A stretch of 64,000 nucleotides of DNA, from NCBI RefSeq assembly GCF_002563675.1, contig NZ_PDJC01000001.1, positions 682,001 through 746,000 of the forward strand, written 5' to 3'. This DNA is from Propionicimonas paludicola (lineage in GTDB: Bacteria; Actinomycetota; Actinomycetes; Propionibacteriales; Propionibacteriaceae). A program made the position numbers and the translations under genes. A model generated the notes under the pieces. That model saw nothing but the letters and a program-made list of their open reading frames with translations. It did no database searches and was not told where the DNA came from. How positions within the stretch are numbered: position 1 is the stretch's first letter; each line of letters opens with the position of its first letter. Below, piece by piece: positions 6,773 through 61,935 of the stretch.

Positions 6773-7423
6773 GTGAGCGAGACACCGATCGCCTGGGACC
6801 AGGGCAGTGGACGCCGCCTGCGACTGGGCGTGATGGGCGGCACCTTCGACCCGATCCACCACGGACACCTGGTCGCGGCCAGCGAGGTTCAGGCCCGTTT
6901 CGACCTGGACGAGGTGGTCTTCGTCCCCACCGGACAGCCCTGGCAGAAGGCCGGACGCGAGGTGTCCCAGCCCGAGGACCGCTACCTGATGACCACCATT
7001 GCGACCGCGTCCAACCCGCGGTTCTCGGTGAGTCGGGTCGACATCGAACGTCCGGGTGCTACCTACACCGTGGACACCCTGCGCGACATCCACAGCCTGC
7101 GCGGCCCCGAGGTGGATCTGTTCTTCATCACCGGCGCGGACGCGCTGAGCAGGATCCTCACCTGGAAGGGTGTCGACGAGGTGTTCGAGCTGGCGCACTT
7201 CGTCGGGGTCTCCCGGCCCGGGGTCGAGTTGGCCGAGAGCGACATTGCGCATCTCCCCGAGGATCGGGTTACCCTGCTCGAAGTGCCGGCGTTGAGCATC
7301 AGCTCCACCGCCTGCCGGGAACGGGTGGCCGCCGGGCTGCCCATCTGGTACCTGGTGCCGGACGGCATCGTCCAGTACATCGCCAAGCGCGGGCTCTACC
7401 GCGCGCCAAGAGGAGAGCAGTGA
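6773..7423 (+). CDS. nadD: Nicotinate-mononucleotide adenylyltransferase
   Basis: A 216-residue nucleotidyltransferase. The signature [15 protein letters not shown] near residue 20 binds ATP, and [13 protein letters not shown] near the C-terminus is the second conserved motif (ISSTxxR). It adenylates nicotinate mononucleotide on the common NAD route that also uses nadABC at 26934-30264. GTG 6773 is preferred over a TTG at 6728 because GGGAAGG lies just upstream. Its stop overlaps rsfS by 4 bp; nadD-rsfS pairing is widespread. Confidence 0.95.
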
Positions 7424-39410: not shown

Positions 39411-40241
39411 GTGAGGATTCCCGCCGAAGCTGAGTTGAGCGAGGTGGTTCGGGCTCGGCTCGAGCACCTGCTGTCCGAGCTGGAGCCTGCCGTGACCGGT
39501 GAGCCGAGGCGGGCGTGGGCTCCGAAGTCGTCCAGCGTCCCTAGCCAGGAGCCTGCGGTTCCGGTGGGGGAGTCGGCCGCTGGGGCGGGCGTGGCGGCGT
39601 CCGCTCCAGCGGTGGTGGCGCGGGTGTTGAGCTTCGGGCGTGAGCATCTGGTCGCGGTGGTGCTGATCTTGGTGGTGGGGACGGTCTGGACCGGCTACAG
39701 CCTGTTCCAGGCGCGGACGACGCCGGTGGCTGCGGCCGTGGCTCCGACGATCCTGGCCATGCCCACTCCTACCCCCACGCCGACGCCGAGTCCGGCATCG
39801 GTGCTGGTCCACGTGCTCGGCAGTGTGCACCGGCCGGGGGTGGTCCAGTTGGATGAGGGCAGTCGGGTGCAGGATGCGATCGCGGCGGCCGGTGGCCTGA
39901 CCGGCGACGCCGATCCCGGTGAGCTCAACCTGGCGGCGGTGTTGGTGGACGGCTCGCAACTGAAGATCGGCACCAAGAAGCACCCCGGTGGCGAGCTCCG
40001 ATCCGGTGCCACTGGTGAGCCTGGTAGCCCTGCGGGCGGGGCTGCGGAGGCGAAGATCTCGCTGAACACCGCCACCGTGGCCCAGTTGGACACGCTGCCC
40101 GGGATCGGGCCGGTGACTGCGCAGAAGATCCTCGACTGGCGCACCGAGCACGGCAAGTACACCGCCATCACCGAGCTGCAGGAGGTGGACGGAATCGGCC
40201 CCAAGACCTATGCCGACCTCGCCGCGCGCGTCCGGCTCTGA
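39411..40241 (+). CDS. comEA: ComEA-like DNA-binding competence protein
   Basis: A 276-residue protein. It has a cytoplasmic N-terminus of about 75 residues and a membrane helix near 80-102 (VAVVLILVVGTVWTGYSLF). A SLBB-like domain follows (VLVHVLGSVHRPGVVQLDEG..), then a C-terminal helix-hairpin-helix pair (LNTATVAQLDTLPGIGPVTAQKILDWR; LQEVDGIGPKTYADL). It binds incoming double-stranded DNA outside the membrane and passes it to ComEC. GTG 39411 is the likely start; the weak initiation region leaves some doubt. It overlaps comEC by 32 bp. Confidence 0.92.
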   Translation: MRIPAEAELSEVVRARLEHLLSELEPAVTGEPRRAWAPKSSSVPSQEPAVPVGESAAGAGVAASAPAVVARVLSFGREHLVAVVLILVVGTVWTGYSLFQARTTPVAAAVAPTILAMPTPTPTPTPSPASVLVHVLGSVHRPGVVQLDEGSRVQDAIAAAGGLTGDADPGELNLAAVLVDGSQLKIGTKKHPGGELRSGATGEPGSPAGGAAEAKISLNTATVAQLDTLPGIGPVTAQKILDWRTEHGKYTAITELQEVDGIGPKTYADLAARVRL

Positions 40242-42528
40242 CATCGACTATCGACCGCCGCTGCTGGCGTTGGCCGCGTGGCTGGGCGCCTGGCTGGGCA
40301 CCGGGCTGTCGCCCCTGATCGCCCTGCTGGGGATCGCCGTGGCCGGGTTGTTCGCCGCCTTGCTGAGGCGCCGTCCGCTGATCGCCGCCGTCGCTATCAC
40401 GCTGGCCTGTTGTGCAGGCCTGGCCACGCTGCATAGCTGGTCGGTGCACTCCAACCCGGTGGCCGAACTGGCCAATGACGGTGCGGTGGTGGTCGCCGAT
40501 CTCGAGGTCCACCAGGGTCAGCTCAGCGACAGTTCGCCCGGCGGACCGACCTGGATCGCGACTGCCCGGCTGGTCGCGGTGGAGGGACGCGGGCAGCTGT
40601 GGCAGTCCGGAGCTGAGCTGCGGGTATCGGCCACCGGTGCGCTGCTCGACGTGTGGGAGGAACTGCCGGTGGGCAGCACCGTCCGGGCCACGGTGAAGCT
40701 CGGCCCCACCGACCCGATCGACCAGGTCAGCGGCTGGGGCAGCCTGCGTTCACCGCCGACGGTGCTGGCCGACCCGGGCCCGGTGGACGCCGCGGTGAAC
40801 CACGTCCGGGCAGGCCTGCGGACGGCCGTGGCCGGCCTCCCCGAGGAACCGCGGGGGTTACTGCCGGGCCTGGTCCTGGGCGATACCTTGCAGATGCCGT
40901 CCACCCTGGTCGCCGAGTTCACGGTGGCCGGGCTGACCCACCTCACGGCGGTGTCCGGGGCCAACCTGATGTTGCTGTTGGCGGCGGTTTACTGGCTCGG
41001 CGGACGGCTGGGCGTCCTCGGCTGGTGGCGGCGCGGTCTGGGGCTGCTCACGGTGGCCGCCTTCGTGGTGCTGTGCCGGGGCGAGCCCAGCGTGCTGCGG
41101 GCGGCGGCCATGGGGCTGGTCGGGCTGGCTGCCCTGGGCTGGGCCAGCGCCGGGCAGGGGCTGCGCTACTTGTCCTGGGCGATCGTCGGGCTGGTCATGT
41201 TCGATCCGTGGCTGTCCCGCTCGGTCGGCTTCGTCTTGTCGGTGCTGGCCAGTGCCGGGATCATCTGGTGGGCCCGGCGTTGGTCGAAGGTGCTGGCGAC
41301 GTGGCTTCCGGGCTGGCTGGCCGAGGCGATCGCGGTGCCGATCGCGGCCCAGCTGGCCACCCAGCCGGTGGTCACCGCGATCTCGGGACAAGTGAGCGTG
41401 GTCGGCGTGCTGGCCAATCTGGTGGCCGCGCCGCTGGTCGGACCGGCCACCGTGCTGGGGTTCGCGGCGGCCGGGCTTTCGGTGATCGTCCCGCCGGCCG
41501 CGGTGGCGCTCGGCTGGGCCGGCGGCGGCTTCGCCCAGGTGCTGTGCTGGGTAGCTCACGCGGCGACCGCGTTCCCGGGGGCGGCCGTCACCTGGCCGGC
41601 CAGCCCGGCCGGACTGGCTCTGCTGGTGGTCGGCTGTGGCGTCCTGTCCTTGGCGGCGCCGCTGATGTGGGCTCGCCCGTGGCTGAGTGTGCTGGTCGGC
41701 TTGGCTCTGGTGTTCGCGCTGATCCGGGCCCCGAGTGTGCCGGGTTGGCCGGCCAAGGACTGGCTGGTGGTCAGCTGTGATGTGGGTCAGGGGGACGCCA
41801 CCGTGTTGCGGGCCGGGCCGGATGCGGCAGTCGTGGTGGACACCGGCCCCGACCCAGCTCTGGTGGATCGCTGCTTGTCCCAGCTCGGGATCACCCGGGT
41901 GCCGTGGCTGATCCTCACTCATCTGCACGCCGACCACGCCGCCGGAGTGGCCGGAGTGGCCAGGGGACGCCGCGTCGAGCGGCTGCTCTACTCGGGCGTG
42001 GAGACTCCGACCGGCAACTGGAGAGAGGCGCTGGCTGCCCTGCCCGAGGTGCCGCGCGTCGTCGCCGGTCCGGGGACGGTGATCGGGGCCGGCCAGGTCC
42101 GGGTGCAGGTGCTATCCCGGCGTCCGCTGCTGGCCCCCGGCGTCGATGATCAGGACTCGTCCGAGGAGAACGACTCCTCGCTGGTGATGCGGGCCGAGCT
42201 ACCCGGCCTGCGCGTGGTGCTGGCCGGCGACGTCGAGCCGGCCGGACAGGACGCCGCGCTGGCCACCGGCGCCGACCTGAGCGCCCAGGTGCTGCTGGTG
42301 CCGCACCACGGATCGGCGCGACAGTCCGAGGGCTTCCTGCGCTCGATCGGCGCTTCGGTGGCCCTGATCAGCGTCGGCGCACACAACGACTACGGCCACC
42401 CGGCGGCCCGCACCCTGTCCACCGTCGGCTCCACCGGCGCCCGGGTCTTCCGCACCGACCGCAACGGAGCCATCGCGGTGGCGTCCGGTCCGGACGGGCT
42501 GCTGGTCACCACCCAGCGCCCGTCCTGA
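40210..42528 (+). CDS. comEC: ComEC DNA uptake channel / metallo-hydrolase
   Basis: A 772-residue protein. The N-terminal membrane and OB-type (DUF4131) region is followed by the competence domain with LPGLVLGDTLQMP and FTVAGLTHLTAVSGANL and about ten helices. The C-terminal metallo-beta-lactamase domain (from about residue 515) has DVGQGDATVL, LTHLHADHAAG and VLLVPHHGS, a complete metal-binding set. It carries single-stranded DNA across the membrane and may degrade the other strand. ATG 40210 has no clear Shine-Dalgarno, so it is probably coupled to comEA. Confidence 0.93.
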   Translation: MPTSPRASGSDIDYRPPLLALAAWLGAWLGTGLSPLIALLGIAVAGLFAALLRRRPLIAAVAITLACCAGLATLHSWSVHSNPVAELANDGAVVVADLEVHQGQLSDSSPGGPTWIATARLVAVEGRGQLWQSGAELRVSATGALLDVWEELPVGSTVRATVKLGPTDPIDQVSGWGSLRSPPTVLADPGPVDAAVNHVRAGLRTAVAGLPEEPRGLLPGLVLGDTLQMPSTLVAEFTVAGLTHLTAVSGANLMLLLAAVYWLGGRLGVLGWWRRGLGLLTVAAFVVLCRGEPSVLRAAAMGLVGLAALGWASAGQGLRYLSWAIVGLVMFDPWLSRSVGFVLSVLASAGIIWWARRWSKVLATWLPGWLAEAIAVPIAAQLATQPVVTAISGQVSVVGVLANLVAAPLVGPATVLGFAAAGLSVIVPPAAVALGWAGGGFAQVLCWVAHAATAFPGAAVTWPASPAGLALLVVGCGVLSLAAPLMWARPWLSVLVGLALVFALIRAPSVPGWPAKDWLVVSCDVGQGDATVLRAGPDAAVVVDTGPDPALVDRCLSQLGITRVPWLILTHLHADHAAGVAGVARGRRVERLLYSGVETPTGNWREALAALPEVPRVVAGPGTVIGAGQVRVQVLSRRPLLAPGVDDQDSSEENDSSLVMRAELPGLRVVLAGDVEPAGQDAALATGADLSAQVLLVPHHGSARQSEGFLRSIGASVALISVGAHNDYGHPAARTLSTVGSTGARVFRTDRNGAIAVASGPDGLLVTTQRPS

Positions 42529-42542
42529 GCCGTCCGAGACCG

Positions 42543-42644
42543 CTATGCCCGCCGGCGACGCCGGATCAGCAGGCTGCCCAGTCCGATGCTGAGCAGACCG
42601 GCGGCCGGCACCCACCAGCCGATCGAGTTGCCGGTGTAGGCCAG
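42543..42644 (-). other. Cell-wall sorting signal (LAYTG, helix, Arg tail)
   Basis: LAYTG is encoded at 42644-42630, followed by a hydrophobic segment (WWVPAAGLLSIGLGSLLI) and RRRRRA at the C-terminus. LAxTG is the motif preferred by class E sortases of high-GC actinobacteria. Confidence 0.85.
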
Positions 42645-45600
42645 GCCGGATCCCGCGAACTCGTTGGTCACCGAGACCGCGAGCTGCTGCATGGTGTTCG
42701 GCGAGTCGGCCGTCACCGAGACGGCGGTGGCGGGGGAGTCGTGATCGATGCGGACGGTGATCGCACCGCCCCGATCCGTCTCCCGGGCCCAGCACTGAGT
42801 GCCGGCCGGGAGCAGCACGGGGTTGCCCTCGGCGTCGTTCAGGGTGGCCGAGCCGGCCCCGGTGATCTTCAGGGCACCTTCTGCAACCGTGGTGCCCTCG
42901 CGCTGGCAGGTGACCTGCATGGTGAAGGTCTTCCCGCGTGCGGCCACCGCGCCGGGGCCAGTGAGCTTCTTGGTCACCGTGAGCTCGCCTGCGGAGTACT
43001 CCGCCGCGATCCCGGCCACCGCCACCGTCCCCTGCTCGCCGGTCACCTCGACGCTGCTGGGCAGAGCGTTGGCACCCTCGGCCGACAGCGGACGCACTGT
43101 GCAGTGCGCCCCGACCGGGATCGGACCGAGCACCGGACTGCTGGCCGAACTCTGACCGGGCACCGGCGTGATCGTGACCGTGGTGGAGAACACGCTGCCG
43201 GAGGCCCCAGCCAGGGTGCAGTCCACCTGAGCGGTGATCGGCTTGGCGAAGCGGCCGGCTCCCACTCCGGTGAAGTCGGCGACCAGCCGCAGACTGCTGG
43301 TGTGGAAGGCATTGGTCACATTCACCTCGACCGGGTCGGCGCCGACGGTGAAGGTGGGCTGGTCGATGCCGATCTCGTCCGATGCGACGGCCAAGGAGCT
43401 GGCCGACTCGCTGATGGCGCAGGACGCACCCCGCGGAACCGCCGCGAACTCCGCGGTTCCGTCGCCGGTGATGGTCCGAGTGTCCCCGCCCGGGATCGCC
43501 ACGGTCTTGGTCTGCCCGTCCACCTGCTGCGAGCAGCTCAGCCGCACGGTGTAGGTACCGCTCACGAACGGCTCGGATCGGCTCGGCTGTCCGTCGACCA
43601 GCAGGTGCTTGGTCACTCGGACCGAGCCGGTGGCGAAGTCGTTGGTCAGCTGCGCGGTGTTGGCTCCGGTCGCGGCGATGGTCAGGTTCGCCGGCTCGCC
43701 TGCCTGGGTGGCACCGCCGGTAGCGGACTCGCTGACCGTGCAGTGCGCGCCGACCGGGATCGGTCCCAGCTCGGAGCTGGTCAGGCCGGTGGCCGTCGAG
43801 AGGCTCAGCTGATCATTGCGGTAGACCAGCCACGGCTCGTCCACCCCCCGCTCGTCCAGCGTGCAGGAGACCGAGAAGCCGAACGGGTAGGTGGCGAAGT
43901 CGGACGCCCCGTCGCCGGTCACCGACTTCTGCACGACCAGCGGCCGGGTGTGGTAGTCGTCGATGGCGGTGATGGTCGCCGGCGTGGCACCGACACTCAC
44001 CGGTCCGGCCGTCGCCGTGTCGGCCGTGCGGTAGCTGAGTGCCTGTGGCGTCAGGCTGGCATCGGTCTGCTCCAGACTGCACCGGGCGCCGAGCGGCAGG
44101 CCGGTGAAGGTGAACGAGTCGGCGCCGGTGAGCTCGACGGTGTTGCCGCCGGGCACCGAGATCGGCGTCCAGGTGCCGTTGACCAGCCGCTCACAGCTGA
44201 GCTGCGCGGTGAACTTCGCCGAGGCGAACGGGGTGGCAGTGGTCGGCACTCCGTCCAGTTGGACCTCGACCGCAGCGGTGATGGAGCCCAGTCCGAACTC
44301 GTTGGTCATCGTCACGGCATTCTCGTCGGTGTCGGCGATCCGAATGGACGCGGCCGCGGCAGGCTGCGATGCGCCGCCGGTGCCGGTCTCGGTGACCGTG
44401 CAGTCCGCACCGACCGGGATCGGACCGAGCGGATCGCTGACCAGGCTGGTGTCGCGGGACAAGGTGATCTTGTCGGCCGAGAACACCGAGTGGGCGTGAT
44501 CCTCAGCATCGGTCAGCGAGCAGCTGACCGAGAACACCGAGTCGGCATTGGCCCAATCCGGCGCCCCCTCACCGGTCAGCTTCTTGGTGATCGTCAGCAG
44601 GCCGGTGTGGAAGTCGTTGGTGACCCGGGCCTGTGCCACGTCGCCGGCCGGGACCGGGTCGGGCTGGCTGATCTCGACCTGCCCGGCAGGCAGAGCGAAG
44701 TCGGAGGCGACCTCTCGCACCGAGCAGGACGCGCCTGCGGGCAGCCCGGTGTAGGTGGCCGAGCCGGAGCCGGTGATGGTGCGCTCGCTGCCTCCGGGGA
44801 TGTCGATTGCCACGGAGTCGCCGTTGACGATCCGCGTGCAGGACAGGGCCACGCGGTAGTCCCCGCCGGCGTAGGGCTGCGCGGACGAGCTGGTGCCGTC
44901 CACCATGATGGCCTTGCTGACCCGGACCGAACCCAGCTGGAAGTCGTTCACCATGCTGATGGCGGTCGGCGTGGCCGTCCCGGTGCTGACCCGGAACGTG
45001 GCCGGCTCGGCTGCCGTGGTTGCGCCGCCGGTGCCGGTCTCGGTCACCGTGCAGTCCGCTCCGCCGGCAAGCCGGGACAGCTGCCAGACCGGCTCGGCCT
45101 TGCTGACCTCGTCGGTGCCGTCGTAGACCACGGCCGGAGCGGTGTCATCGTCCTGGTCGGTGTCCAGAGTGCAGCGGGTGTGCAGGATGAAGGTCTGGTT
45201 GCCCCAGGCGGTGGCGCCGTCGCCGGTCAGCCTCTTGGTGATCGTGGCTGCTCCGGAGCCGTACCTGTCGATGAACTCCAGGCTGCCGGGGGTGGCTGAG
45301 ATGCCGGCTTCGGCCGTATCGGACGACGTGGGCTCGGCGGTCCCGACCGCCACCTGCACAACCGAGTTCCGTCCCGGTGCGCTCTCCTGCACGGTGCACT
45401 GCGCCCCCAGCGGCAGCCCGGAGAACGTCCGGGTCTCGCCGTTGGCCAGACCGAAGGATCGATCGGCGGGGGCCAGCAGGTTGCCCTGGTCCCGATAGGT
45501 GCAGGAGGCAGTGAAGCCGTAGCCGCCCGGGTAGCTGATCGGCAGGCCGTTGGCATCGCGCGCATCGCCGGCATCGACGGTCTTGGTGATGGTCAGCGAC

Positions 45601-48600
45601 CCGACCGCGAACACATTGGTCATGGTCAGGCTGGCCGCATTGCCGCTGTCCGGACGATCCGGAATCGTCACCTCGGCCGGGTCGGCGGGCTCGGTGGCCC
45701 CGCCGGCATCGGTCTCGCGCACCTGACAGGTGGCGCCGACCGGGATCGGGCCGAGCGTGGCCGAGGTCGGATGCTCGTCGGTCAGCGAGATCTTGTCGTT
45801 GGTGTAGACCGGCTCGTCCAGGCCAGGCAGCGTGCAGCTGGCGGCGAAGGTGAACGGGCCCTTGCCGTAGGCCGCACCGGGTCCGGCCAATGCCTTGGTG
45901 ATGGTGAGTGAACCGGTGTGATAGTCGTTGGTGACCGTCACCTCGGTGACCCCGCTGGACGGCACCGTCGTGCGTGCCGCGGGGGAGAAGCCCACGCCGT
46001 TGGCGGCCGGGCTGGACGCCGTCTCGGTGACCTCACAGGAGGCTCCGGTCGGCAGCCCGGTGTAGTCGGCGCGGAACTGGTTGTCGGCATTCAACGTGCG
46101 TTCGGCTCCGCCGGGCACCTCGAGCTCGACGTCCTCGCCGTTGACCTGACGGGTGCAGCTCAGGATCACCGTGGCCTGCGCAGCGTCCAGCTGGGTGGCC
46201 CAGTCGTCGCCGGGGGCAGAGCCGTCCACGGTGAACGCCTTGCTCACCCGGACGGTGCCGGCAGCGAAGGTGTTGGTGATGCTGGCCCGAGTGGTGCTGT
46301 CGGCGGCGATGGTCACGGTCTGCGGCTCGGGATGGCTCGTGGCTCCACCCCAGGCGGTCTCGGTGAGCCGGCAGCTCGATCCGGCCACCAGCTTGTCGAT
46401 CAGCCAGACCGGGGAGTCCTTGCTCAGCGTGTTGCTGGCCTGGAACACCGGCTGCGGGTCGGTCTCGGGATCCGCGTCCAGGTCGGCGGTGCACCGCACG
46501 TCCACCGAGAACTCGGTGGTGCCCCAGGCGTCCGCTCCGGCGCCGGCGAGCAGCTTGGTCACTTCCAGGGAACCGGTGCGGTAGCTGTTGGTGAAGTCCA
46601 CCCGGTTCACGGCCGGGTCGTCGGCACCGAACATCCCGGAGCCGCGCACCAGAGTGACGGTGGTCTCGGTGCTCTTGGCGGACGTCGGCGTGCCGCCGTC
46701 CTGAGTCACCGTGACTGCGGTGCCGGCGGCACCGGCGCTACCGACCTGAGTGAGGGTGCACGAGGCCCCGGCCGGCAAGCCGGTGAAGGAGCGGCTGGTC
46801 CACTCGCCATTGGCCTGGTGAGTCAGGCTGAAGGTGCTGGACCAGACGGTCGTCCCGTTGAGCTCACAGCGAGCGGTGTAGTCGAAGGTGCCGGTGTGCG
46901 CCACGTCCTTTTCGGGGTCCTTGGCGCCGCCGTTGTCGACGGTGTTGGTGACGGTGAACCCGGCGTACTCGAAGGAGTTGGTGACGCTCAGGTCGAGGCT
47001 TTGCAGGGTCTGCGGGGTGCCTGCGGTGACGACGGCAGCGGTGTCCCAGTCATGTCGGTCGACCGCGCTGGACGTAGCCGACTTCGAGTCGGTCTCGGTG
47101 GCCCAGCAGTGGCTGCCCAGCGGGACCCGGGACGGGGCGCCGTCGGCATCGGTGACGTTCACCCGCTGGCCGCCGCGGATGGTGAGCTGCCGGGAGAACA
47201 CCGGGGTGCGGGCATCGCCGATCAGGGCCTCACAGCTGACCTGCACTCCGAACTCAGCCTCGGTGGCCCAGGGCTCGGCGGCGGCTGCGCCGGACAGAGC
47301 CTTACTGAGGTAGACCGTGCCGGCGCTGAACTGGTTGGTCAGGCCTGCCACGTTGGCCGAAGCGGTGTCGTCGATCGTGATCGTGACCGGATCAGGAGTG
47401 AAGTCGGCCTTGCCGGAGTCCACTTCGCTGACCTGGCAGGCTGCTCCGACCGGGATCGGGCCGATCGCGGCGGAGTTCAGCACAGTGTCGGTGGCGCTGG
47501 TGCGTCGCAGCGAGATCCCGGACTGCTCGAAGACGGTGGTGCTGGTGCCGGCGACCGGCATGGTGCAGGACACGTCGAACCGGAACGGTCCGTCACCGAA
47601 GGATGCCTGTCCGGCGCCCTCCAGCTGCTTGCGGATGGTCATGGTCCGGGTATGGAAGTCGTTGGTGACGGTGATCGACTGCGGAGTCGACGGGTTGTTG
47701 CCGACGGTCACGCCCGCGCTGATCGATGTGGACTGCGCCGTCGGGCTCGAGGAGACCTCGGTGGCCGAACAGCTGGCTCCGGTGGGCAGGTTGTCGTAAC
47801 GGGCCTGGCCGTTGCCGCTGATGGTGCGGACGCCGTCTTGGCTGTCCCCGAGCGGGAAGGAGTCACCGGGGATGTCGATCGCCACGCTGGAGCCGTTGTA
47901 GGGACGGGTACAGGCGAGCTTCACCTGGTAGCTACCGGACGTCCATGGGCTGGCCGTGGTGCTGGTCCCGTTCACGGTCAGGGCCTTGGCCACCGTCACC
48001 GCACCGAGGGTGAAGGTGTTGGTCAGGCTGACCGCCTGCTCGCTCGTGCCCACGGTGAACGTGGTCGGACTGATCGTCTTGCTGTTGCCGCCGCCGGTCT
48101 TCGGCTCCGAGACAGTGCAGCTCGCCGAGCTGACCAGATCGGGCACCGTCCAGCTCTGGCCAGCGGCCAGGTCCTGGGTGGCGCTGTAGACGGTGCTGCT
48201 ACTGGCATCGGCCAGGGTGCAGGTCAGGTTCGCCGTGAACGTCCCGGTGCCCCACAGGGCCGCGCCGGAGCCGGCCACCGACTTGGTGATCTTCACCGAG
48301 CCGGTCGTGTACTTGTTGGTGAAGGTGAGCCGGGTTGCGGTTGCGTCCCCGCTGACCAGGGTGAAGGCCTTTGTGGTCGCGGCGCTGGTCGTGTCAGTGC
48401 TGCCGGACTGGAATCGCACATCGGTGCCGGCCGCACTGCGGCTGTTGGTCTCGGCCACCGTGCACTGGGCGCCGGTGGGCAGGTTGCTGAAGGTCCGCGA
48501 CGCGCCGGCGGCCAGGGTGAAGCTGCGGTCGGCCGCGTTGCTGAGCACCTCCGCGCCCTTGAACGTGCAGCTCGCAGTGAAGGCGGCCGCCTTGTAGGTG

Positions 48601-51600
48601 ATCGCCGCGCCGGCGGCGTTCTTGGCGGACGAGGAGACCTGCTTGGTCACCGTGAACCCGGCATAGTCGAACTGGTTGGTGAAGCTCGCCGTGGTCACGT
48701 TCGCCGTCTCGGCGTTCTCGGTGATGGTCAGGTGATCCGGGGACGTGGTGTCGGTGGCTCCGGCTGCCGAAGACTCGGTCACCGCGCAGGTCGAGCCGAA
48801 CGGGATCGGCCCCAGCGGCGCCGAGTCCAGGCTGGTCTGCCCCGCGGTCGGAGTGAGCGTGATTCCGGTGGCGCTGAACACCGATCCGAAGCCGTCCTGG
48901 GTGCAAGACACGTCGAAACGGAACGGGCCGGTGCCCCAGGTGGTGTTGGCGGCGCCGGTGATTTCCTTGTGGATCACCAGTTTGCCGGCGGCGAAGGCAT
49001 TGGTCAGGTTCAGCTGTGCGACGGTGCCGTCTCCGACGGTCGCCGAGCCGACGCTGGCGGTGGGCTGCGGCTGGTCGGTGACACTCGAGGTTCCCTCGAC
49101 CACCGTGCAGCTGGCGCCCTGCGGCAGGCCGTCCCATTGGACGTGGCCGGCGCCGGTGATCGTCTTGGCCGCGAAGCCCGCACCGAGCCGGGCGTCCAGG
49201 TCCAGGTCCTCGGCGACGCCGTCGTTGTTGAGGTCCTTGGTGCAGGTCAGCGTCACCGGGAAGCTTCCGGTCGACCACGGGGCCAGCCCGGCCGCGTTGG
49301 TGCCGTTGGCGGTGATGGCCTTGGTCAGCTTCACCGAGCCGGTGTTGAAGGTGTTAGTCACCGTCACGACCTGGTTGCCGGTCCCTATGGTCGGGTTGGG
49401 CAGGTCGATGGTGGTGGCGTTGGCGCCGCCGTTCTTGGCCTCACTGATCGCGCAGTGAGCACCGGTGGGCAGATTGCGGAGCTCCCAGTTCTGGCCCGCG
49501 CTCAGCGACCTGGTGTCGTCGAACACGGTCACCTCGGGGCTCGACGCGTCGGCGTCGGCATCGAAGGTGCACTGGGCGCGCACAGTGAACTTGCCGGTGC
49601 CCCAGGCGGTCTTGCCATCGCCCTGAGTGGCCTTGGTGATGTCCAGTCCGCCGGTGGTGTAGCGGTTGGTGAAGGTCACCGCAGAGGCGGACGCAGTGTC
49701 GGCACGATGCACCAGCGTGAAGTCGGTGCTGGTGGTGCCGGTGTCGACGCTGTCCTCGTCTTGGACGGTTCGCACCGCGGTGCCGGCGGCACCGCGAGCG
49801 TCGGTCTCACGGACGGTGCACTCGGCTCCAGTGGGCAGCTCGCCGAACTCCTTGGTGCCGTTGGCGGCCAGGGTGAAGCTGCGCTGCTCGGGGGTGAGGA
49901 ACTCGGTGCCGCCGATCGTGCAGGACGCCGTGAAGGCGTAGCTGCCGGTGTAGGCGATCGGCTGGCCGGCGGCGTCCACTGCATCGCTGGTGACCAGCTT
50001 GGTGACGCTGAAGCCGGAGAAGGTGAAGTCGTTGACGATCACGGCGGTGCGGGTCGCGTCGGCCTCAACCGGCTTCAGAGTGGCCCAGCTGCCGTCGACA
50101 GAGCTGCCCGAGCTCTGCAGATCCGGCCCGGCCTGGGCCGAACTCGTGGTGGCCCATCCCTTGTCGGTCTCGGTCACCGTGCAGATCGCGCCCTGCGGGA
50201 TCGGGCCGAGCAGGGCCGAGCTGAACTCGGTCTGGTCGCCCGAGCGCTGCAAGGTGACGTCCTTGGCCTCGAAGACGTTTCCTTGGCTGCCGGCCAGGGT
50301 GCAGGTGACGTCGAAGCTGTACGGAGCGCCGCCCCATGCCGCCGCGGCCTCACCGGCGAGCTTCTTGGTGATCTGGACGTGGCCGTAGCCGAACTCATTG
50401 GTGACGGTCTGGGTCCGGGTCTCGGCGTTGCCGACCACCACGGGATCGGAGTAGCTGGTGGAGCTCAGCTGCGGCTGGTCGGGGGTGTCGGTGGGGTACT
50501 GCACCGTCCCCTCGGTCGCCGCGCAGGAGGCGCCCTCGGGCAGGCCGGACCACTCCACGTGGCCGGCGCCGACGATCGTCTTGGTGGCGTCGGTGACCGG
50601 AATCGACTCGGCGATCCCGTCGTCGTTTAGATCCTTGGTGCAGGCCAGTGTCATCGGGAAGCCGGTGCTGGCCCACGGCTCGGCCGTGGTGTTGCCACCT
50701 TCGACCACCAGCGACTTCTGGACCCGAACGGTTCCGGTGTGGAAGGTGTTGCTCACTGCCACCTGGCCGGTGGTGCCATTGCCGATGAGGGCAGTGCCCT
50801 GGCTGCTGGTGGTGGTCGACCCGACCGTGAAGGACTGCTGGTTGGCTCCGGCCGACTTCGGCTCAGTGATCACACAGCTGGCCCGGTTGGGCAGATCCTC
50901 GATCAGCCACGACTGTCCGGCAGTGAGCTGCTTGGTGACGTCGAGGATGGTCGCGTTGCCGGCATTGTCGGTGGCTCCGGCCAGGGTGCACACCGCCCGC
51001 AGCGTGAAGGTGCCGCCGTCCCAGGTGCCCTTGCCGGCACCGTCGGTGGTCTTGGTGATGTTCAGCTTGCCGGTGGTGTAGCGGTTGGTGAAGGCAGCCA
51101 CGTTGGCGCCGGGGTCGTTCAGGTCGCCGGTGGCCCGGACCAGGGTGAACGACCTGGTCGAGGTGGAGCCGGTGGCCGAATCGGAGACCGTCTGGTTCTT
51201 GGTGATCGTCCAGTCCGTCGAGGCGGCGTTGGCGGCATTGGTCTCGCTGACCGTGCAGTTGGCGCCGGCCGGGAGATCGGTGAAGGTCTTGGACTCCCCG
51301 TCCTTCAGCGAGAACGTGCTCGTGGCCAGCGCGGTCGCGGTGGAGGTGAGCCCGTTGTTGTAGGTGCACGAGGCGCTGAAGCCGTAGCTGGGGGTGTACT
51401 TCACGCCCAGCCCATTGGTGTCCTTGGCGCCGCCGTTGTCGACAGTCTTGGTCACCGTGAAGCCGGTCAGCGAGAAGGTGTTGGTGAACGCGGCGGTCTT
51501 GGTGCTGCCACCGTCGAGCACATTGTCGATCGGGTCGAGGCTGACGCTGGCCGGCGTTGTGTGGATCGCGCCGGCGGCATTGGTCTCGGTCACCGTGCAG

Positions 51601-54600
51601 GCCGATCCCACCGGGACCGGGCCGACCACCGCGGAGGCGAAGGTGCTTTCGGTGTTGGCCCGCTTGGCGGTCACGTCGCTCTTGCTGAACACCGTGGTCG
51701 GCGTGCCGTTGAGTGGCAATGTGCAGGTCACGCCGAAAGTGAAGGTGCCGCCACCCCAGCGGGTGGCGCCGTCCCCGTCCACCGACTTGGAGACCTTGAG
51801 GTTTCCGTAGCCGAAGTAGTTGGTGACGTTCAGGGTGTAGGTCCCGGTACCGCTGATGGAGGTCGGGCTGCTGGGAACGACCACCGTGTACGGCGGCTGC
51901 GTCGGGGTGCCGGTCGGGTAGGTCACGCCGGTCTCGGCCACGGTGCAGTCGGCCTGCGTCGGGATCGACCACGACAGGCTGCTGGCGCCGGTGATCGTCC
52001 CCGACTTGGTGATGGTCTCGGTCGACCCGCCGATGTCCCGGGTGCAGGTGAGCGTGACGTCGAACTTGGTGCTGCTCCAGGGCAACTTGCCGGCGACGTC
52101 GCTGGAGGTGGTGGTGGTTCCGGCCCGGGTGAGCTTCTGGACCTTGGCCATGCCCTGGGTGAAGGTGTTGGTCACCGTGGAGGTGGCCGTGGTGCCGTCA
52201 CCCACCGTGGGCTTCTGGTTGGTGTAGGTGGTCGTGTTGGCGCCACCGTCAACGGTCTCGCTGACACTGCAGGACGCCCCGCTGGGCAGCTGCGAGATCG
52301 TGGACGACTTCTTGTTGGTTGAGCTGCTCAGACCGCTCAGTTCACTGGTGCTCCAGCCGAGAGTGACGGTCCCGTCGTAGACCGTCGAGCTGGCAGCGCC
52401 GGTCTGGGCGACCGCAGAGGTACAGGTCAGTCGAAGCGTGAACGGCTGGTAGGCCCAGGCCTTGGCCGCACTGAGCAGCCCCGCATTCGAGATGTCCAGC
52501 GCCTTGGTGAGGGTCACCGCCCCGACGCCATAGGTGTTGGTGATGGCTGCGACGTTGGCCGCGGGATCGCCGGTGGCGTTCGACGGATCACCCTTGACCA
52601 GAGTGAAGGTGCTGGTGGCGCCACTGACCGTGGCATTGCTCTGGCCGGCACGCTTGACCACGATGCCCGTGCTGGTGGCGGCACCGGTGTCGGTCTCGGT
52701 CACCGTGCAGCTGGCTCCGGTGGGCAGGTGGTCGTAGGTCTTCTCGCCCCACCGGGTGGTGCCGGTCTCGCTGGAGGTGCTGCCGCTCAGCGTGAAGGTG
52801 TCGGAGAGCACCGTGCTGCCGTTGAAAGTACAGCTGGTGGCGAAGGTGAAGGTGGGCTTGTAGGTGAGGTAGGCGCCGGCCTGGTCCTTCGCTCCACTGG
52901 TGACGACGTCCTTGGTGACCGTGAAGCCGGCGTAGCTGAACGCGTTCGTCGCAGTGATGCCGAGGTTCTGGACGGCCTCAGGGGAGGCCAGCACCTGGGC
53001 GGCGTGATCGAAGTCTGCCTTGTCCACCGAGGCGTCCACGGCCCCGTTGGTGGTGGTTTCACTTGCCCAGCAGTGGGTGCCGTAGGGGAACAGGATGGCC
53101 TGCCCATTGCCGTCGGTCAGCTGGACGCTCTGGCCACCCTTCACCTGGACGGTGCCGTCGTAGGAGTAGGGGCCGGTCGCGGTCTTGCCGCACTTCACGG
53201 CCAGACCGAAGGTGGCGCCGGTCGCCCAGGACGCACCCGCGGCGTCCCCGGTGAGCACCTTCGAGACGGTGACGGTGCCGGCCGAGAAGTAGTTCTCGAA
53301 GCTCGTGGAGTTCACATCGGAGGCGGCGTCGTCCTTGGTGATCACGACGGTGTTCGCGCCCGGAGTGGCGTCCGCCCCGCCGGTGGCGGTCTCGGTGACC
53401 TGGCAGCTGGCTCCGAAGGGCAGCGGACCGATCACGGACGAGGCGAGGCTCGGCGTGGTCACGGCGACATTGGATGCGGTGAAGACGGTGGTGCCGTCCA
53501 GGGTGCAGCTGACCCCGAACTTCGCCGAGCTGAAGAAGCCGGCGCCGACCCCGGACAGGGTCTTGTGGATCTGCAGCTTGCCGGCCCGGAAGTCGTTGGT
53601 GATCCCGATGGCGGCGGTGGTGGCATTGCCCACGCTGACCGGGTCGGTGACGGTCACTGTCGGGTCGGGCTGGCCGGGTACCGAGCCGGCGCCGTCCTCG
53701 GTCGCGGAGCAGGTGGCACCGGTCGGAAGGTCGGTGTAGGTGGTGGTGAATCCGCCGGCCTTGGTGAGCGTGCGGGTGGCGTTGTGCGGGACGTCGACCG
53801 GCACGCTCTCGCCGTTGACCTGCCGGGTGCAGCTCAACGTGACCGGGAACTCGCCGCTGACCCACGGCTCGGCGCTGGTGGGCGCCCCGTTCGCCGTAAT
53901 CGTCTTGGTGACCTTCACCGAGCCGGTGGTGAAGGTGTTGGTGATGGTCACCTTCGCCGGATCGGACGGGTCGTCGCCGACCACGAAGCTGCCCCCGACG
54001 ATCGCACTGGAGTTGGCTCCGCCAACCTTCGCCTCGGTGACCGTGCAGCTGGCTCCGGTGGGCAGGTTGGTGACGCTCACCGGCGCGGACTTGTCCAGGC
54101 TGATTTCGCCGTCGAAGACGGTCTCGGGCACCGCATCGGGGTGAGTACAGGTGAGCTGGGCGGCGAATGCCTCGTCATCCCACAAGCCGGTGGGGTCGAC
54201 GGCGACCTTGGTCAGCTCCACGGCTCCGACGCTGAAGTGGTTGGTGTAGTCGACCACGGTGGCCTCCGCGTCGCCGGCCACCAGGCTGAAGCGCGCGGTT
54301 GCCCCGTCGGTCTCCGGCCGGCTACCACCAGTGACCTCGACGGTGGTGTCGGTGGCCGACCGGACGTCCTGCTCGGTCACCGCGCAGGTGGCGCCGGCCG
54401 GCAGATGCTCGAAGGTCATCGTTCCGCCATCGCGCAGAGTGAAGCTGCGCTGGACGGCCGGCAAGACCTCGGTGCCGTTGAGCGTGCACGATGCGGTGTA
54501 GCCGAAGTCCTTGAACGAGACCGGCTGGCCGGCCGCGTCGCGGGCCACCGGGCCGGTGACGGTCTTGGTGACGCTGAACCCGGCATCGCGGTAGGTGTTG

Positions 54601-57600
54601 GTGACGGCCAGGGTGGGCAGAGCCGGACCGGCCCAGCCATTGCTGACGTTGGCGATGTCGGCATAGCTGTTGGTGGCGATCACAGAGGTTGCGCTGGAGG
54701 TGGCTCCCTGTGCGGAGTCCTCGTCAAAGCGGCAACTGGCGAACAGCGGCAGGTTGCTGGAGCCGTCGAGGTTGTAGCCGACGGTGGTGCCGGTTCCGGT
54801 TCGTCCGGGGACGGGCAGGCTCAGGCTGCCAGCGGCCGGATCGGAGAGGGTGAGCGGGCCGGCATCGTCGGAGCAGGTCAGCGTTCCGGAGTAGGAGTTC
54901 GGCAGGGCAGCGGTCCAGGCGCTGCCGTCGGGGACGGTCACCGTCTTGGCCAGGTTCAGCTTGCCGCTGGCGATCGCCACACCGACCTTTCGCGGCTCAG
55001 TGATCAGTGAAGCGCGAGCCGGGTAGGCAGGGGTGTCCGCCGTCGCAGAGACCTCAGCGGTCCGCGAGCCGACCGCCACCGAGTTCCACGCGATCGGCTC
55101 CACCGTGGTCGGATCGGTGAGCGCAGTGTGGGCCGGGGTGATCGTGTCGAAGGTCACCTGCACGGCTCCACCGGGAGCGACGCCGACCTGCGGATCGTCG
55201 TAGGAGATGACCACCTTGATCGCCTTCACGCTGGCCGCGCGGGCATGGTCGGCGCCCGTGGGGTCGGCGAAGTCGGCGTTCTCGAAGCGGGTCCAGGCGA
55301 TGCCGCAGTTGGCGGCATGGTCGGGGTTGGTGTCGTTGAGGATGTCGGACTTGTTGCACGAGGGCGAGCCGGCCGTCGTCGAGTAGTACGTGGCCACCCG
55401 GTAGCCGGAGCCATCCAGGCTCACCCGGACGTTGCCGGCGAACAGCGGCCTGAACTTCGACTTGCGCGAGGTCCCGATGGTGACCCCGGTGTCGCCGACG
55501 GCGGGCAGGACGTCCAGGGCGCTGATCGTGTTGGCCAGGACGTTGCCGCCGTTGATCATCGACAGACGCCAGCGTTCGGTGCCGCCCGGCCGGGTGATCG
55601 GCACGCAGGGAGCGGCGTAGTAGCCGTCGTCGGGCTGATCGCAGTCGGCCAGTGCCGTGCTGCTGCCGGTGGAGATCACCCCCAGATCGTCGACATTGGC
55701 CTGGGTGGCATCCGGGTCACCGGCCGCCACACCCTTGACCGACTTGGTCACGGTCATCGGGGTCGATGCGGCAGCCCGGACCTGGGTGGAACTGGTGCAG
55801 CCTTCGACGTCGGAGGTCTCTTCCTGAGCCAGGCCGTCAACGGTGTACTGACAGGTCTCGAAGCGGCGATCGGAGATCACCGTCGCGGTGTTCGAGACGA
55901 TGGTTCCGGCTTGCAGGTAGTCGCGGAACTTCAGGTTCGCGGTGATCAACAGCACCGCGCCGGGTCGCAGGATGAAGCCCTCCGGCACGGTGATCTGCAG
56001 CTTGCCGGTATCGGTGTCCAGTGATGCCGCGAAACCGGGGACCGCCAGTCCGTCCACGGTGAAGGTGAACGGTTCGGCTGCGGTGGACGCCTGCAGTGCC
56101 GAGCTGCTGACGCCGTGATCCAGCTCGACGGTGCCGACCTGGTCCAGGAGCCGCAGGCCGGTGATGTTCCACTGCCCGGTGTTGGTGATCTTCAGCTTGA
56201 AGGGGATCGGCTCACCCAGGTCGAAGCCGCGCACCGGCGCGTCGGCGCTGGGCCGGCCCGGCGTCTTCTCGATCGAGATCTGGTTCACCCGATGCCTGAG
56301 CAAGGTGGTGCTGGTGCTCGTCGCCGACGCCGCGTAGGGGGCATCGGTCTCCAGCCAGCCGGCGGTGGCCTGGGCCACCACACGGTTGGTGATCTGGCCC
56401 TGCACCGACTCGCCGGGGGCGGTCATCAGCCCCGGACGAGTGGTCGGGACGGCCGTGGTCGAGCCCCCGTCATTGCCATAGACCAGGGAGGCCCGGCGGG
56501 TCACGTTGAGGTTCACCTGCACCCGTGGCGAGGCGGGCCGCTCCCACTGGACGACCTGCTGGTTGGCGTCCACGCTGCGGGCGCCGATCCGGACGCCGCG
56601 GACGTCGCCGGCGCTGATCCCGGACGGGAGGCTCAGCGTCACTTTGCCGCTGCTCGCCGAGGTCCAGTCCCCGCTGTGCCAACAGGCCGACAGGTCCGTC
56701 GAGCCGGCGCACTGGTAGCCGAGCACGTTGCCCGCGGCGTCATAGGACCACTCGATGCCGGTCAGCACCGACAGCTGCAGCTGGTTCACCGGCGCCGGCA
56801 CCTCGACTGCCGGAATCGAGCTGAGGTCGAAGGCGTTCCAGAAGGTCGCGGTGTCGTCGGTGAGGGTGAGCAGCGTGGTTCGGGCGGTACCGCTGGGACG
56901 CCCGGACAGGGCCACCGTGTACTCGTTGGACTCGTCTTCGTAGCGGTTGGCCGGCGTGATCGTCTTTCCGGCCGCGACGGCATAGGTCGGCTGGGCGATG
57001 GCGAACTTGGCGCTCGCGGTGGCCTCCGGGGTGTTGGCGTTGGTGCCACCGGGGCTGACGATGGTGGCGATGGCGGTGTTGGTGACCGCAGCGATCGGGC
57101 CGACCGGCTCATTGCTGGTGCGCAGCCGCGCGCGCAGCTGGTAGGTGAGCTGCACGGTGGCCACCGATCCGGTGTCGATCAGCTTCGCCGAGGGCTCGCG
57201 CAGGCTCTCCAAGTGTCCGTAGTGGACGGTCACGCCGACCACGTCGGCCAGCTCGGCCGGGGTCATGGCCTCCGCCTGATCCAGGCTCAGCCCGTCCTGG
57301 GCGGAGATCGCGGTGCCGTCCCAGTGCTGCAGGTCGACGCTGACCTGGCCGCGCTCGAGGTCGGCGGGCAGTTCGCCGCCGCGCAGCTGGTACAGGTTCA
57401 GGTAGTTGTAGGCGCCCCAATCACCCAGGTGTGGGTTCGGGTCGGCAAGGGTCAGCTCGGGGACCAGCGAGGCGGTGGTGTTGGTCGCGGTGAGTGTGCT
57501 GGTGATCAGCGGGTACTGACTCTGATCGGTGGACGCCAGTTGCGGCAGCCCGAGCAGGTCCTGATCGAAGCTCTTGCTCAGCGACACATTCAGGGGACGG

Positions 57601-60494: not shown

Positions 60495-60930
60495 GACGCT
60501 CGGCGTTCGACCTGAGCGAAGCCTAAGGGTGGAATTGTGGCGCGTCCAACTGAAGTCTGGAAAATCCATCATTCGGATGCATTTCTGGCCCGACTCGGCG
60601 GGTTTCCGGTCACCCGAATGGGGGAACATGGCTGATGCTGGCACCCTTTTGGGGGACTTGGGTCGGCGATGGTGTGGCGGGGTGTCAGCCCGAGGTCGGG
60701 GCTGTGCGCCGGGCTGGGTTCACCGGATCTGGGCTCGGCTTCGACGAAGACGCTGTCGCGTCTCGGCCTGGTCGCCGAGTGTTGACGTCTGCGGGGGCCG
60801 CAAATTCGAGAATGACGATCGATGGCATTTGGAATCTCGATCCGGTGAATTCCCCGAATTCGACGCTAATTCCTTGTGGGAGCCACTTCCGGGTCGAGAG
60901 TGACCGAAATGCTCGGCCCGGAGTGAGCCC
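60495..60930. other. Intergenic region between the giant gene and holA
   Basis: About 436 bp without a supported gene. It contains the giant gene's promoter (60520-60549) and an AT-richer patch around 60800-60880 that has GAATTC-CCC-GAATTC (two restriction-like palindromes making an inverted repeat) and ATCGAT/TTCGA elements. The holA Shine-Dalgarno GGAG is at the end. The lower GC patch is unlike its surroundings and could mark a junction of the inserted giant gene. Short open frames here have no recognisable product. Confidence 0.5.
60520..60549 (-). promoter_or_regulatory. Promoter of the giant surface-protein gene
   Basis: On the minus strand TTGGAC (60549-60544), 18-bp spacer, TAGGCT (60525-60520). 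Transcript start is expected near 60513, giving a leader of about 19 nt before GTG 60494. Confidence 0.5.
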
Positions 60931-61935
60931 ATGTCCGACGAGCCTGGCATGCTAGGCGCCGTGGAACAGGGAAGATCGTTCGGATGCTCACTATTGGTTA
61001 CCGGCCCGGAGTCATTGCTGGCTGAGCGGGCGGTGGCCGACTTCGTCGAGCGGGCCCTGGCTGAACGACCCGATGCAGCCGTGAACCGGCTGGAGGCGGC
61101 CAACCTTGACGCGGGGGCACTGGCCGAGGCCACCGGTGGCTCACTGTTCGCCTCTGCGAGCATCGTTGTGCTCAACGACCTGGCCTCGCTCCCCGAACAG
61201 CTGAACGACCAGCTGCTGGCCCAGGCCGGCAATCCGGGGCCAGATCTGGCCCTGGCGATCGTCCATGGTGGGGGAGTCAAGGGCAAAGGCCTGCTGGATC
61301 GGCTGAAGAAGCTGCGTCCCGAACTTGTCGACTGCCAAAGCCTCAAGCCCTGGAACCTGCCCCAGTTCGTCAACGCCGAGGTCCGCCGAGCCAAGGGGCG
61401 GGCCGATACTGCCGCCTGCGAAGCCATGGTGGACGCCGTGGGCACCGACCTGCGGGCGTTGGCCGCGGCCGTCCGGCAACTGCTCGATGACTCCGCCGAA
61501 CGGACGATTACCGAGGCAGCCGTGCGTCGCTACTTCGGCGGACGCGCTGAGGTGACTGGCTTCGCGGTGGCCGACGACACCATGGCCGGAAACGGCGAAG
61601 GCGCGCTCGGCAAGCTGCGTTGGGCCTTGGCCACCGGAGTGGCTCCGGTGCAGGTGACCAGCGCGCTGTCGTCCAGCCTGCGCGGGCTGGGTAAGTACTT
61701 GGATGGGCGCGATCTGCGGCTGTCCGACCCGGATCTGGCCAAGCTGGCCGGGGTGCCGCCGTGGAAGCTGAAGGATCTGTCCCGGCTGTCCCGGGATTGG
61801 AAGCCCGGCGGCGTTGCCCAGGCCATTCAGGCGGTTGCGGTGGCCGATGCGCAGATCAAGGGCGCGGCCAGCGATCCGGGGTTCGCCTTGGAGCAGGCGG
61901 TGCTGAAGGTGATCTCCTACCGCGGCCGGCGCTGA
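60931..61935 (+). CDS. holA: DNA polymerase III subunit delta
   Basis: A 334-residue protein with the clamp-loader delta pattern: LLVTGPESLLAERAV near the N-terminus, LKPWNLPQFVNAEVRRAKGR in the middle, and the C-terminal collar-like region (GALGKLRWALATGVAPVQVTSALSSSLRGLGKY). It opens the beta clamp during loading. ATG 60931 has GGAG seven bases upstream; ATG 60949 and GTG 60961 are in-frame alternatives. comEC-holA-rpsT is a standard actinobacterial order, here split by the giant gene. Confidence 0.92.
   Translation: MSDEPGMLGAVEQGRSFGCSLLVTGPESLLAERAVADFVERALAERPDAAVNRLEAANLDAGALAEATGGSLFASASIVVLNDLASLPEQLNDQLLAQAGNPGPDLALAIVHGGGVKGKGLLDRLKKLRPELVDCQSLKPWNLPQFVNAEVRRAKGRADTAACEAMVDAVGTDLRALAAAVRQLLDDSAERTITEAAVRRYFGGRAEVTGFAVADDTMAGNGEGALGKLRWALATGVAPVQVTSALSSSLRGLGKYLDGRDLRLSDPDLAKLAGVPPWKLKDLSRLSRDWKPGGVAQAIQAVAVADAQIKGAASDPGFALEQAVLKVISYRGRR

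Follow-up and report, generated by a model that had tools for sequence, protein, structure and literature searches.

The 64,000-nucleotide stretch of Propionicimonas paludicola DNA analysed here (the window; contig NZ_PDJC01000001.1, positions 682,001 to 746,000) carries on its reverse strand a giant open reading frame (ORF), 42543..60644, which was uninterrupted across 6,033 codons (GTG start at 60644 as listed) and encodes a surface protein of 6,033 amino acids (aa). All features of the protein given below lie on this strand. A hydrophobic stretch ending in TTALAE (residues 75-97; 60354..60422) is a probable signal peptide, as read from the sequence, and a conserved head occupied residues 90-1893 (54966..60377). 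The head was followed by a divergent first repeat, R00 (54582..54965), and by 35 tandem repeats, R01-R35 (42657..54581). An LPXTG-like motif, LAYTG (42630..42644), was followed by a hydrophobic segment and the basic tail RRRRR, making the C-terminal sorting signal complete. The NCBIfam LAXTG/LAVTG models matched this C-terminus under their cut-offs, and three orthologues carried LAYTG/LAFTG. Class E sortases take LAXTG. A sortase of this matching class was encoded in the genome (255 bits versus a cut-off of 160), and it would make the wall link at LAYTG. The product of the ORF is very probably a giant fibrillar surface protein, secreted and anchored by sortase, with a stalk of 36 CnaB-like (DUF5979) immunoglobulin (Ig) domains, 33 of which are predicted to carry isopeptide bonds.

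The Pfam DUF5979 profile (PF19407) gave 36 matches in the 3.26 Mb genome at E <= 0.001, every one of them in the giant ORF. By the curated cut-off the stalk repeats belong to DUF5979, with 35 scoring above 25 bits alone and R00 scoring 24.3 bits (25.3 with its neighbours). The profile of DUF7601, another CnaB-like family in the same table of families (PMC12617251), also matched three stretches of the ORF. The 36 repeats were 99-135 aa long. The first-pass annotation of this locus had described an array of 35 domains (its repeats 1-35 are R01-R35 here); the tandem array stood, and the count rose to 36 with R00, which lay upstream of the annotated span and had the Lys, the C-x3-E motif, and the Asn of the family.

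The same annotation had proposed that the repeats carry the Lys/Glu/Asn triad of CnaB-type isopeptide domains, with a first-strand Lys, a Glu four residues after the second Cys (C-x3-E), and a last-strand Asn. Lys was found in 33/36 repeats, C-x3-E in 33/36, and both Cys residues in 36/36. The Asn column held Asn in 33 repeats, Asp in two (R27 and R31), and Ala in one (R34). Lys, Glu, and Asn/Asp in this order, the complete triad, were therefore present in all repeats but R23, R31, and R34. In R27 (type A; 45255..45602), Asp replaced the bond-forming Asn while Lys and Glu were kept, as had been noted. The wording that every repeat conforms was too strong: the (V/I)xK strand fitted 28 of the 35 repeats then delimited, with LxK in four more, and the (T/S)Nx(F/Y) ending fitted 29 of them, while C-x3-E was absent from the three exceptions named above. 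The estimate of about 32 cross-links and 35 possible disulfides is accordingly corrected to 33 complete triads and 36 Cys pairs. Overall, the triad residues and their joint loss were confirmed, and the uniformity was overstated.

We compared the repeats with solved structures. A profile of the 36 repeats searched against the PDB matched 5u5o best (E 8.4e-9), with 4bug a weak match (0.034). Counted along the alignment, K175, C200, C228, E232, and N288 of 5u5o coincided with the Lys, the two Cys, the Glu, and the Asn of the repeats, and the C-x3-E spacing was identical. The 5u5o entry is the 46E-47I construct of a Mobiluncus mulieris adhesin, for which mass spectrometry and crystallography established a Lys6842-Asn6955 isopeptide, Glu6899 being one of the acids at that site, and mass spectrometry also revealed a disulfide with Cys6895 (PMC10619420). 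With Lys6842 set at K175, the aligned columns correspond to residues 6842, 6867, 6895, 6899, and 6955 of that protein; PMC10619420 gives Cys6887 as the partner in the disulfide, and the alignment puts that Cys at 6867. DUF5979 itself is listed among the CnaB-like isopeptide families, with 4BUG Lys610, Glu680, and Asn715 (PMC12617251). Another profile, built from a more diverse set of 70 rows headed by R31, placed T-antigen pilins at the top (8f70, 5.1e-12), 5u5o fourth (3.2e-5), and 4bug at 0.0028. Searched against the PDB as a single sequence, R18 had no convincing match (best E 0.15). At the triad positions the repeats are thus homologous to an isopeptide domain of known structure, in a family listed as isopeptide-forming, and the alignment with a proven bond supports the interpretation of the repeats as isopeptide domains.

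The three exceptional repeats were R23 (type A; 46575..46961; Lys to Asn, Glu to Gln, Asn kept), R31 (type C; 43947..44288; Lys to Val, Glu to Gln, Asn to Asp), and R34 (type D, the penultimate domain; 42990..43298; Lys to Ala, Glu to Pro, Asn to Ala). That only these repeats lack the Lys, and exactly these lack the Glu, had been claimed for 35 repeats and held over 36; if three Lys and three Glu losses were independent, the same three repeats would be hit by chance with a probability of 1/7140. Since R23, R31, and R34 are of different types, this is not one duplicated loss. R34 was said to lack the Asn too; Ala does stand there, but R31, which has Asp for Asn, had been missed.

We further investigated if this coupling extended across DUF5979. 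The family was searched in overlapping genome samples, and matches were found in 15/30 genomes for the genus, 39/147 for the family, 96/391 for the order, 39/394 for the class, and 31/396 for the phylum. Domains were taken mostly from the best-scoring matches listed, and they are therefore not a random sample. The set excluded loci L024 and L026-L029, which overlap later ones, and loci L001-L022 of the genome itself. The 786 domain matches from 134 sources including the window were reduced to 779 by removal of six partial or X-bearing domains and one identical domain. Glu was scored as present when Glu stood at C+4 (734 domains) or one residue later (32) or when Asp was found (2), and as lost in 11. 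The Lys column held Lys in 759 domains and another residue in 12; eight were unaligned and excluded, among them R08, though R08 has its Lys. Of the remaining 771 domains, 758 had both Lys and Glu, one had Lys only, two had Glu only, and ten had neither. Both Cys residues were present in 687 of the 779 domains and neither in 92, with no domain carrying a single one. Among 21 pairs of conserved columns, phi was 1.00 for Cys-Cys, 0.87 for Lys-Glu, 0.55 for Lys-Asn, and 0.50 for Glu-Asn, and no other pair exceeded 0.085. The strongly coupled conserved columns in this sample are a Cys-Cys unit and a Lys/Glu/Asn unit only. After clustering (672 to 176 clusters), joint losses fell from ten to six, beside one loss of Glu alone and two of Lys alone. 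Counted by position, there were five joint events (the R31 line, the R34 line, R23, L035, and L060, the last in a domain also without the Cys pair), and a rough estimate for five or more joint events by chance, with losses placed at random over 400 to 1,500 equal branches, was 1.5e-9 to 2e-12. The joint Lys/Glu loss, from which the residues had been suggested to work together, held both in this sample and at orthologous positions. This coupling is structure-independent evidence for the two units across the family. A literature search found one paper naming DUF5979 and none on isopeptide coevolution in tandem adhesins; it mostly did not reach subscription journals, and we do not claim absence from print.

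The domains with Glu one residue later (C-x4-E; 32/779) came from 18 loci (L045, L055, L100, L101, and others), often with the motif S/G/D-E-D. Of these 32 domains, 31 had the Lys and 31 had the Asn, with one domain unaligned at each column. Judged by alignment, C-x4-E is a register variant of the putative catalytic Glu.

Clustering of all-against-all scores divided the repeats into types N, A, B, C, D, and E. In the window the order was N-ABCD-E-(ABCD)4-E-(ABCD)2-(CD)2-E, in which R05 (52929..53279) and R22 (46962..47321) are the first and second type E domains and R35 (42657..42989), with a complete triad, is the final type E domain before the wall anchor. The orthologues were compared without genome G428, where the frame taken was antisense. 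G012 had the window's order, G017 had it minus CD-CD, and G010 had N-ABCD-E-(ABCD)3-CD-CD-E. A locus search with a single repeat returned one locus, in Leifsonia sp. Leaf264, and the order in the Leifsonia relative was N-ABD-EE-ABD-EE. The more distant G503, with 12 domains, had no ABCD order. The domain order common to the near orthologues is new here, as are the shared triad-less places and the possible CnaA-like head described below.

Two of the three triad-less places were shared. At the R31 place, the Lys, Glu, and Asn columns read V/Q/D in the window, L/Q/D in G012, and T/Q/D in G010, the three genomes having this block. The penultimate domain read A/P/A in the window, W/Q/N in G012, V/T/A in G017, and V/A in G010, where the Asn column was unaligned; Lys and Glu were gone in 4/4 orthologues compared, and both Cys residues were kept. 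The R23 loss was absent from the corresponding domain of G012 and of G017. Ester-bond chemistry was considered for the triad-less class on account of one orthologue with Thr/Gln there, and was dropped, as the window has Val and another orthologue Leu.

The head was aligned over residues 90-1893 in nine sequences, the other eight being 31-56% identical to the window. Eight of the 35 Lys residues of the window head (246, 427, 605, 802, 1024, 1227, 1460, and 1634) were invariant among the sequences covering them, one at 7/7, one at 8/8, and six at 9/9. With partners picked by eye, an Asp/Glu came after each Lys, and most rows then had Asn/Asp towards the unit's end; unit 2 aligned raggedly at its Asn, and in unit 8 the acid stood further off. 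Lys-Asp-Asn is the order in CnaA-like families (PMC12617251). At E <= 0.01, 6/9 aligned heads matched the CnaA-like family DUF7507 (best 1.6e-12); the head encoded in the window scored 17.8 bits, under the Pfam cut-off of 27. A head profile searched against the PDB gave weak, implausible matches only (best E 0.49). We infer, less confidently than in the case of the stalk, that the head holds up to eight further cross-link domains, possibly CnaA-like. Conserved Cys residues in the head, such as 894 and 900 or 1598 and 1616, may form further disulfides.

In the mechanism that we propose, the first-strand Lys and last-strand Asn (Asp in one) of 33 domains would form an intramolecular isopeptide bond with the help of the C-x3-E Glu, and the Cys pair of each of the 36 folded domains would form a disulfide. 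Tension would be routed via the first and last strands, and an inextensible, protease-resistant tether is therefore expected, which would keep the conserved N-terminal head, with its presumed adhesive role, away from the wall. Under atomic force microscopy, CnaB isopeptide domains of the Spy0128 type were inextensible, whereas CnaA-like ones unfolded in part (PMC12617251; also PMC6232131 and PMC3132780). SpaA D1 lacks the triad, and RrgB D1 is without a bond (PMC3132780).

Several observations weigh against this mechanism. On a tree built without the triad columns, the events were few, with seven Lys changes and six Glu changes. On supported branches there were five independent Lys-differing pairs, in which Glu changed the same way in 3.7 (mean), the opposite way in 0.0, and was unchanged in 1.3, and the sign test gave a median p of 0.125; with only five pairs, p cannot reach 0.05. 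The control columns (both Cys and Pro57) hardly tracked Lys on this tree. Single losses also occurred, two of Lys only (L059 and L095) and one of Glu only (L064), and 4/9 Lys-less domains in which the Asn column could be called retained Asn. In the 5u5o crystals the disulfide had formed only in part (PMC10619420), and no ligand-binding domain was recognised in the protein by Pfam and PDB profile searches. An alternative is an Ig-like fold in which Lys, Glu, and Asn are conserved as partners in hydrogen bonds and a buried salt bridge, without any covalent bond: the Asn coupling is weaker than Lys-Glu, and R31 and two orthologues have Gln/Asp where Glu/Asn stand elsewhere, like a hydrogen-bonded pair. 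We consider such an arrangement improbable, in that the solved structure nearest to the 36-repeat profile has its bond at the aligned residues, the family is listed as isopeptide-forming, and Asp accounted for 6/9 non-Asn letters at the Asn column. Major pilin backbone proteins are among the nearest PDB chains, which might instead point to repeats serving as subunits of a polymerised pilus. This is very hard to reconcile with one 6,033-aa chain carrying its own sorting motif, and of the two sortase matches from the genome search, one is the class E enzyme and the other, a weaker match, is class-E-like; both lie outside the window (pilin motifs were not part of the search).

If the other stalk domains are covalently bonded, the triad-less ones are left to be explained. 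Triad loss in R31 and R34 is probably drift: domains near the anchor may lie in the wall under little load or protease, and after one triad residue is lost the others would decay. Both sites are among the last five domains in the orthologues having them, and the Lys column varies freely at both (V/L/T and A/W/V/V). R23, however, lies mid-stalk, R31-type domains retain Gln and Asp in 3/3, and the last domain, R35, has the full triad. The absence of Lys and Glu from every penultimate domain compared, with its Cys pair intact, together with the force contrast between Spy0128-type and CnaA-like domains (PMC12617251), could also mean that triad-less domains were selected to unfold under force and so to buffer, by a limited extension close to the wall, a stalk that is inextensible elsewhere. 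This seems rather unlikely, as a shared ancestral loss gives the same pattern and no triad-less domain was found in the Leifsonia relative. The shared places can be simple ancestry, and sharing alone is no proof of selection. About as unlikely is a scheme in which the whole ectodomain forms one mechanically graded covalent cable, with eight CnaA-type head domains yielding under shock, an inextensible, fixed-register ABCD stalk of CnaB domains with type-specific neighbour interfaces, and triad-less, disulfide-only domains held at fixed positions close to the wall as limited-extension fuses.

Giant isopeptide adhesins are a known kind of protein, of which the window protein is a large new example whose four-domain pattern is unusually regular. 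Like it, the 7,651-aa M. mulieris adhesin (5u5o/5u6f) is single-chain and sortase-anchored, with dozens of tandem Ig-like domains and a long N-terminal region of > 2,000 residues (PMC10619420), and the Lys, C-x3-Glu, Asn, and Cys residues of its isopeptide domain align with the window repeats. The M. mulieris adhesin has 18 ester-bond beside 33 isopeptide domains, a predicted thioester domain, and LPxTG (PMC10619420); the window protein has the LAYTG anchor and the ABCD domain order. Sequence searches of the window protein gave no match to the ester motif HxDxxDxxQ of thioester-isopeptide-ester (TIE) adhesins, to the thioester motif TQxx(FWY)W, or to a Pfam thioester domain. With 36 matches and Lys/Glu/Asn in the listed order, the stalk agrees with DUF5979 as tabulated (PMC12617251 Table 1), but differs in that 3/36 copies lack Lys and Glu and in that every copy has the Cys pair, versus 687/779 sampled domains. 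One domain of the major pilins Spy0128 (3b2m) and the T-antigens (8f70 and 6bbt) aligned across nearly the whole repeat profile with the same Lys-Glu-Asn order, whereas the second Cys was absent in the alignments printed. Spy0128 and the T-antigens are polymerised pilins, unlike the window protein. The CnaA-like domains CLIPPER (DUF11) and DUF7507 have a Lys-Asp-Asn order resembling the eight head units, but the Lys-to-Asn spacing in the window head is longer than in the listed examples (PMC12617251). The stalk offers a natural series in one molecule, with 33 domains with and three without the complete triad, of the same family and with the same Cys pair, on which the contribution of the bond to mechanics and to protease resistance can be tested directly. 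The fixed ABCD order and the shared triad-less places raise the question of whether domain order encodes stalk mechanics.

The ORF head was 50-56% identical in three genomes of the same genus. Compared with G017, the proportion of synonymous differences (pS) exceeded that of nonsynonymous differences (pN) in the head (0.491 versus 0.315) and in six ABCD blocks (pS 0.44-0.50, pN 0.18-0.29), and the gene therefore looks maintained. Antisense frames over the stalk, such as 45918-50630 on the forward strand (1,570 codons), are probably shadow ORFs. The giant gene sits between two forward-strand neighbours that are not part of the system, comEC (40210..42525, profile match) and a holA-like gene (60931..61932; DNA_pol3_delta_C, 25.9 bits, cut-off 27). 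Among the orthologues, comEC adjoins in G010 and both genes flank in G017, and neither was found on the stretches fetched for G012. G001 is a close relative (HolA match 94% identical, ComEC 82%) with zero DUF5979 matches at E <= 0.001; its comEC and holA matches were 59 bp apart, with no giant gene. Across the nine genus members looked at, the comEC-holA distance ranged from about 0 to 9.6 kb, marking this as a variable site. G006 (L176) and G018 (L178) had about 9.6 kb and 6.6 kb of other sequence in the interval, none of which matched the giant protein at E 1e-4. Giant open frames with DUF5979 were also seen in other genus members, with 7,506 and 4,985 aa, in G014:C20 (L101 and L102) and G013:C37 (L100), and G014 and G013 each had 13 DUF5979 matches per genome.

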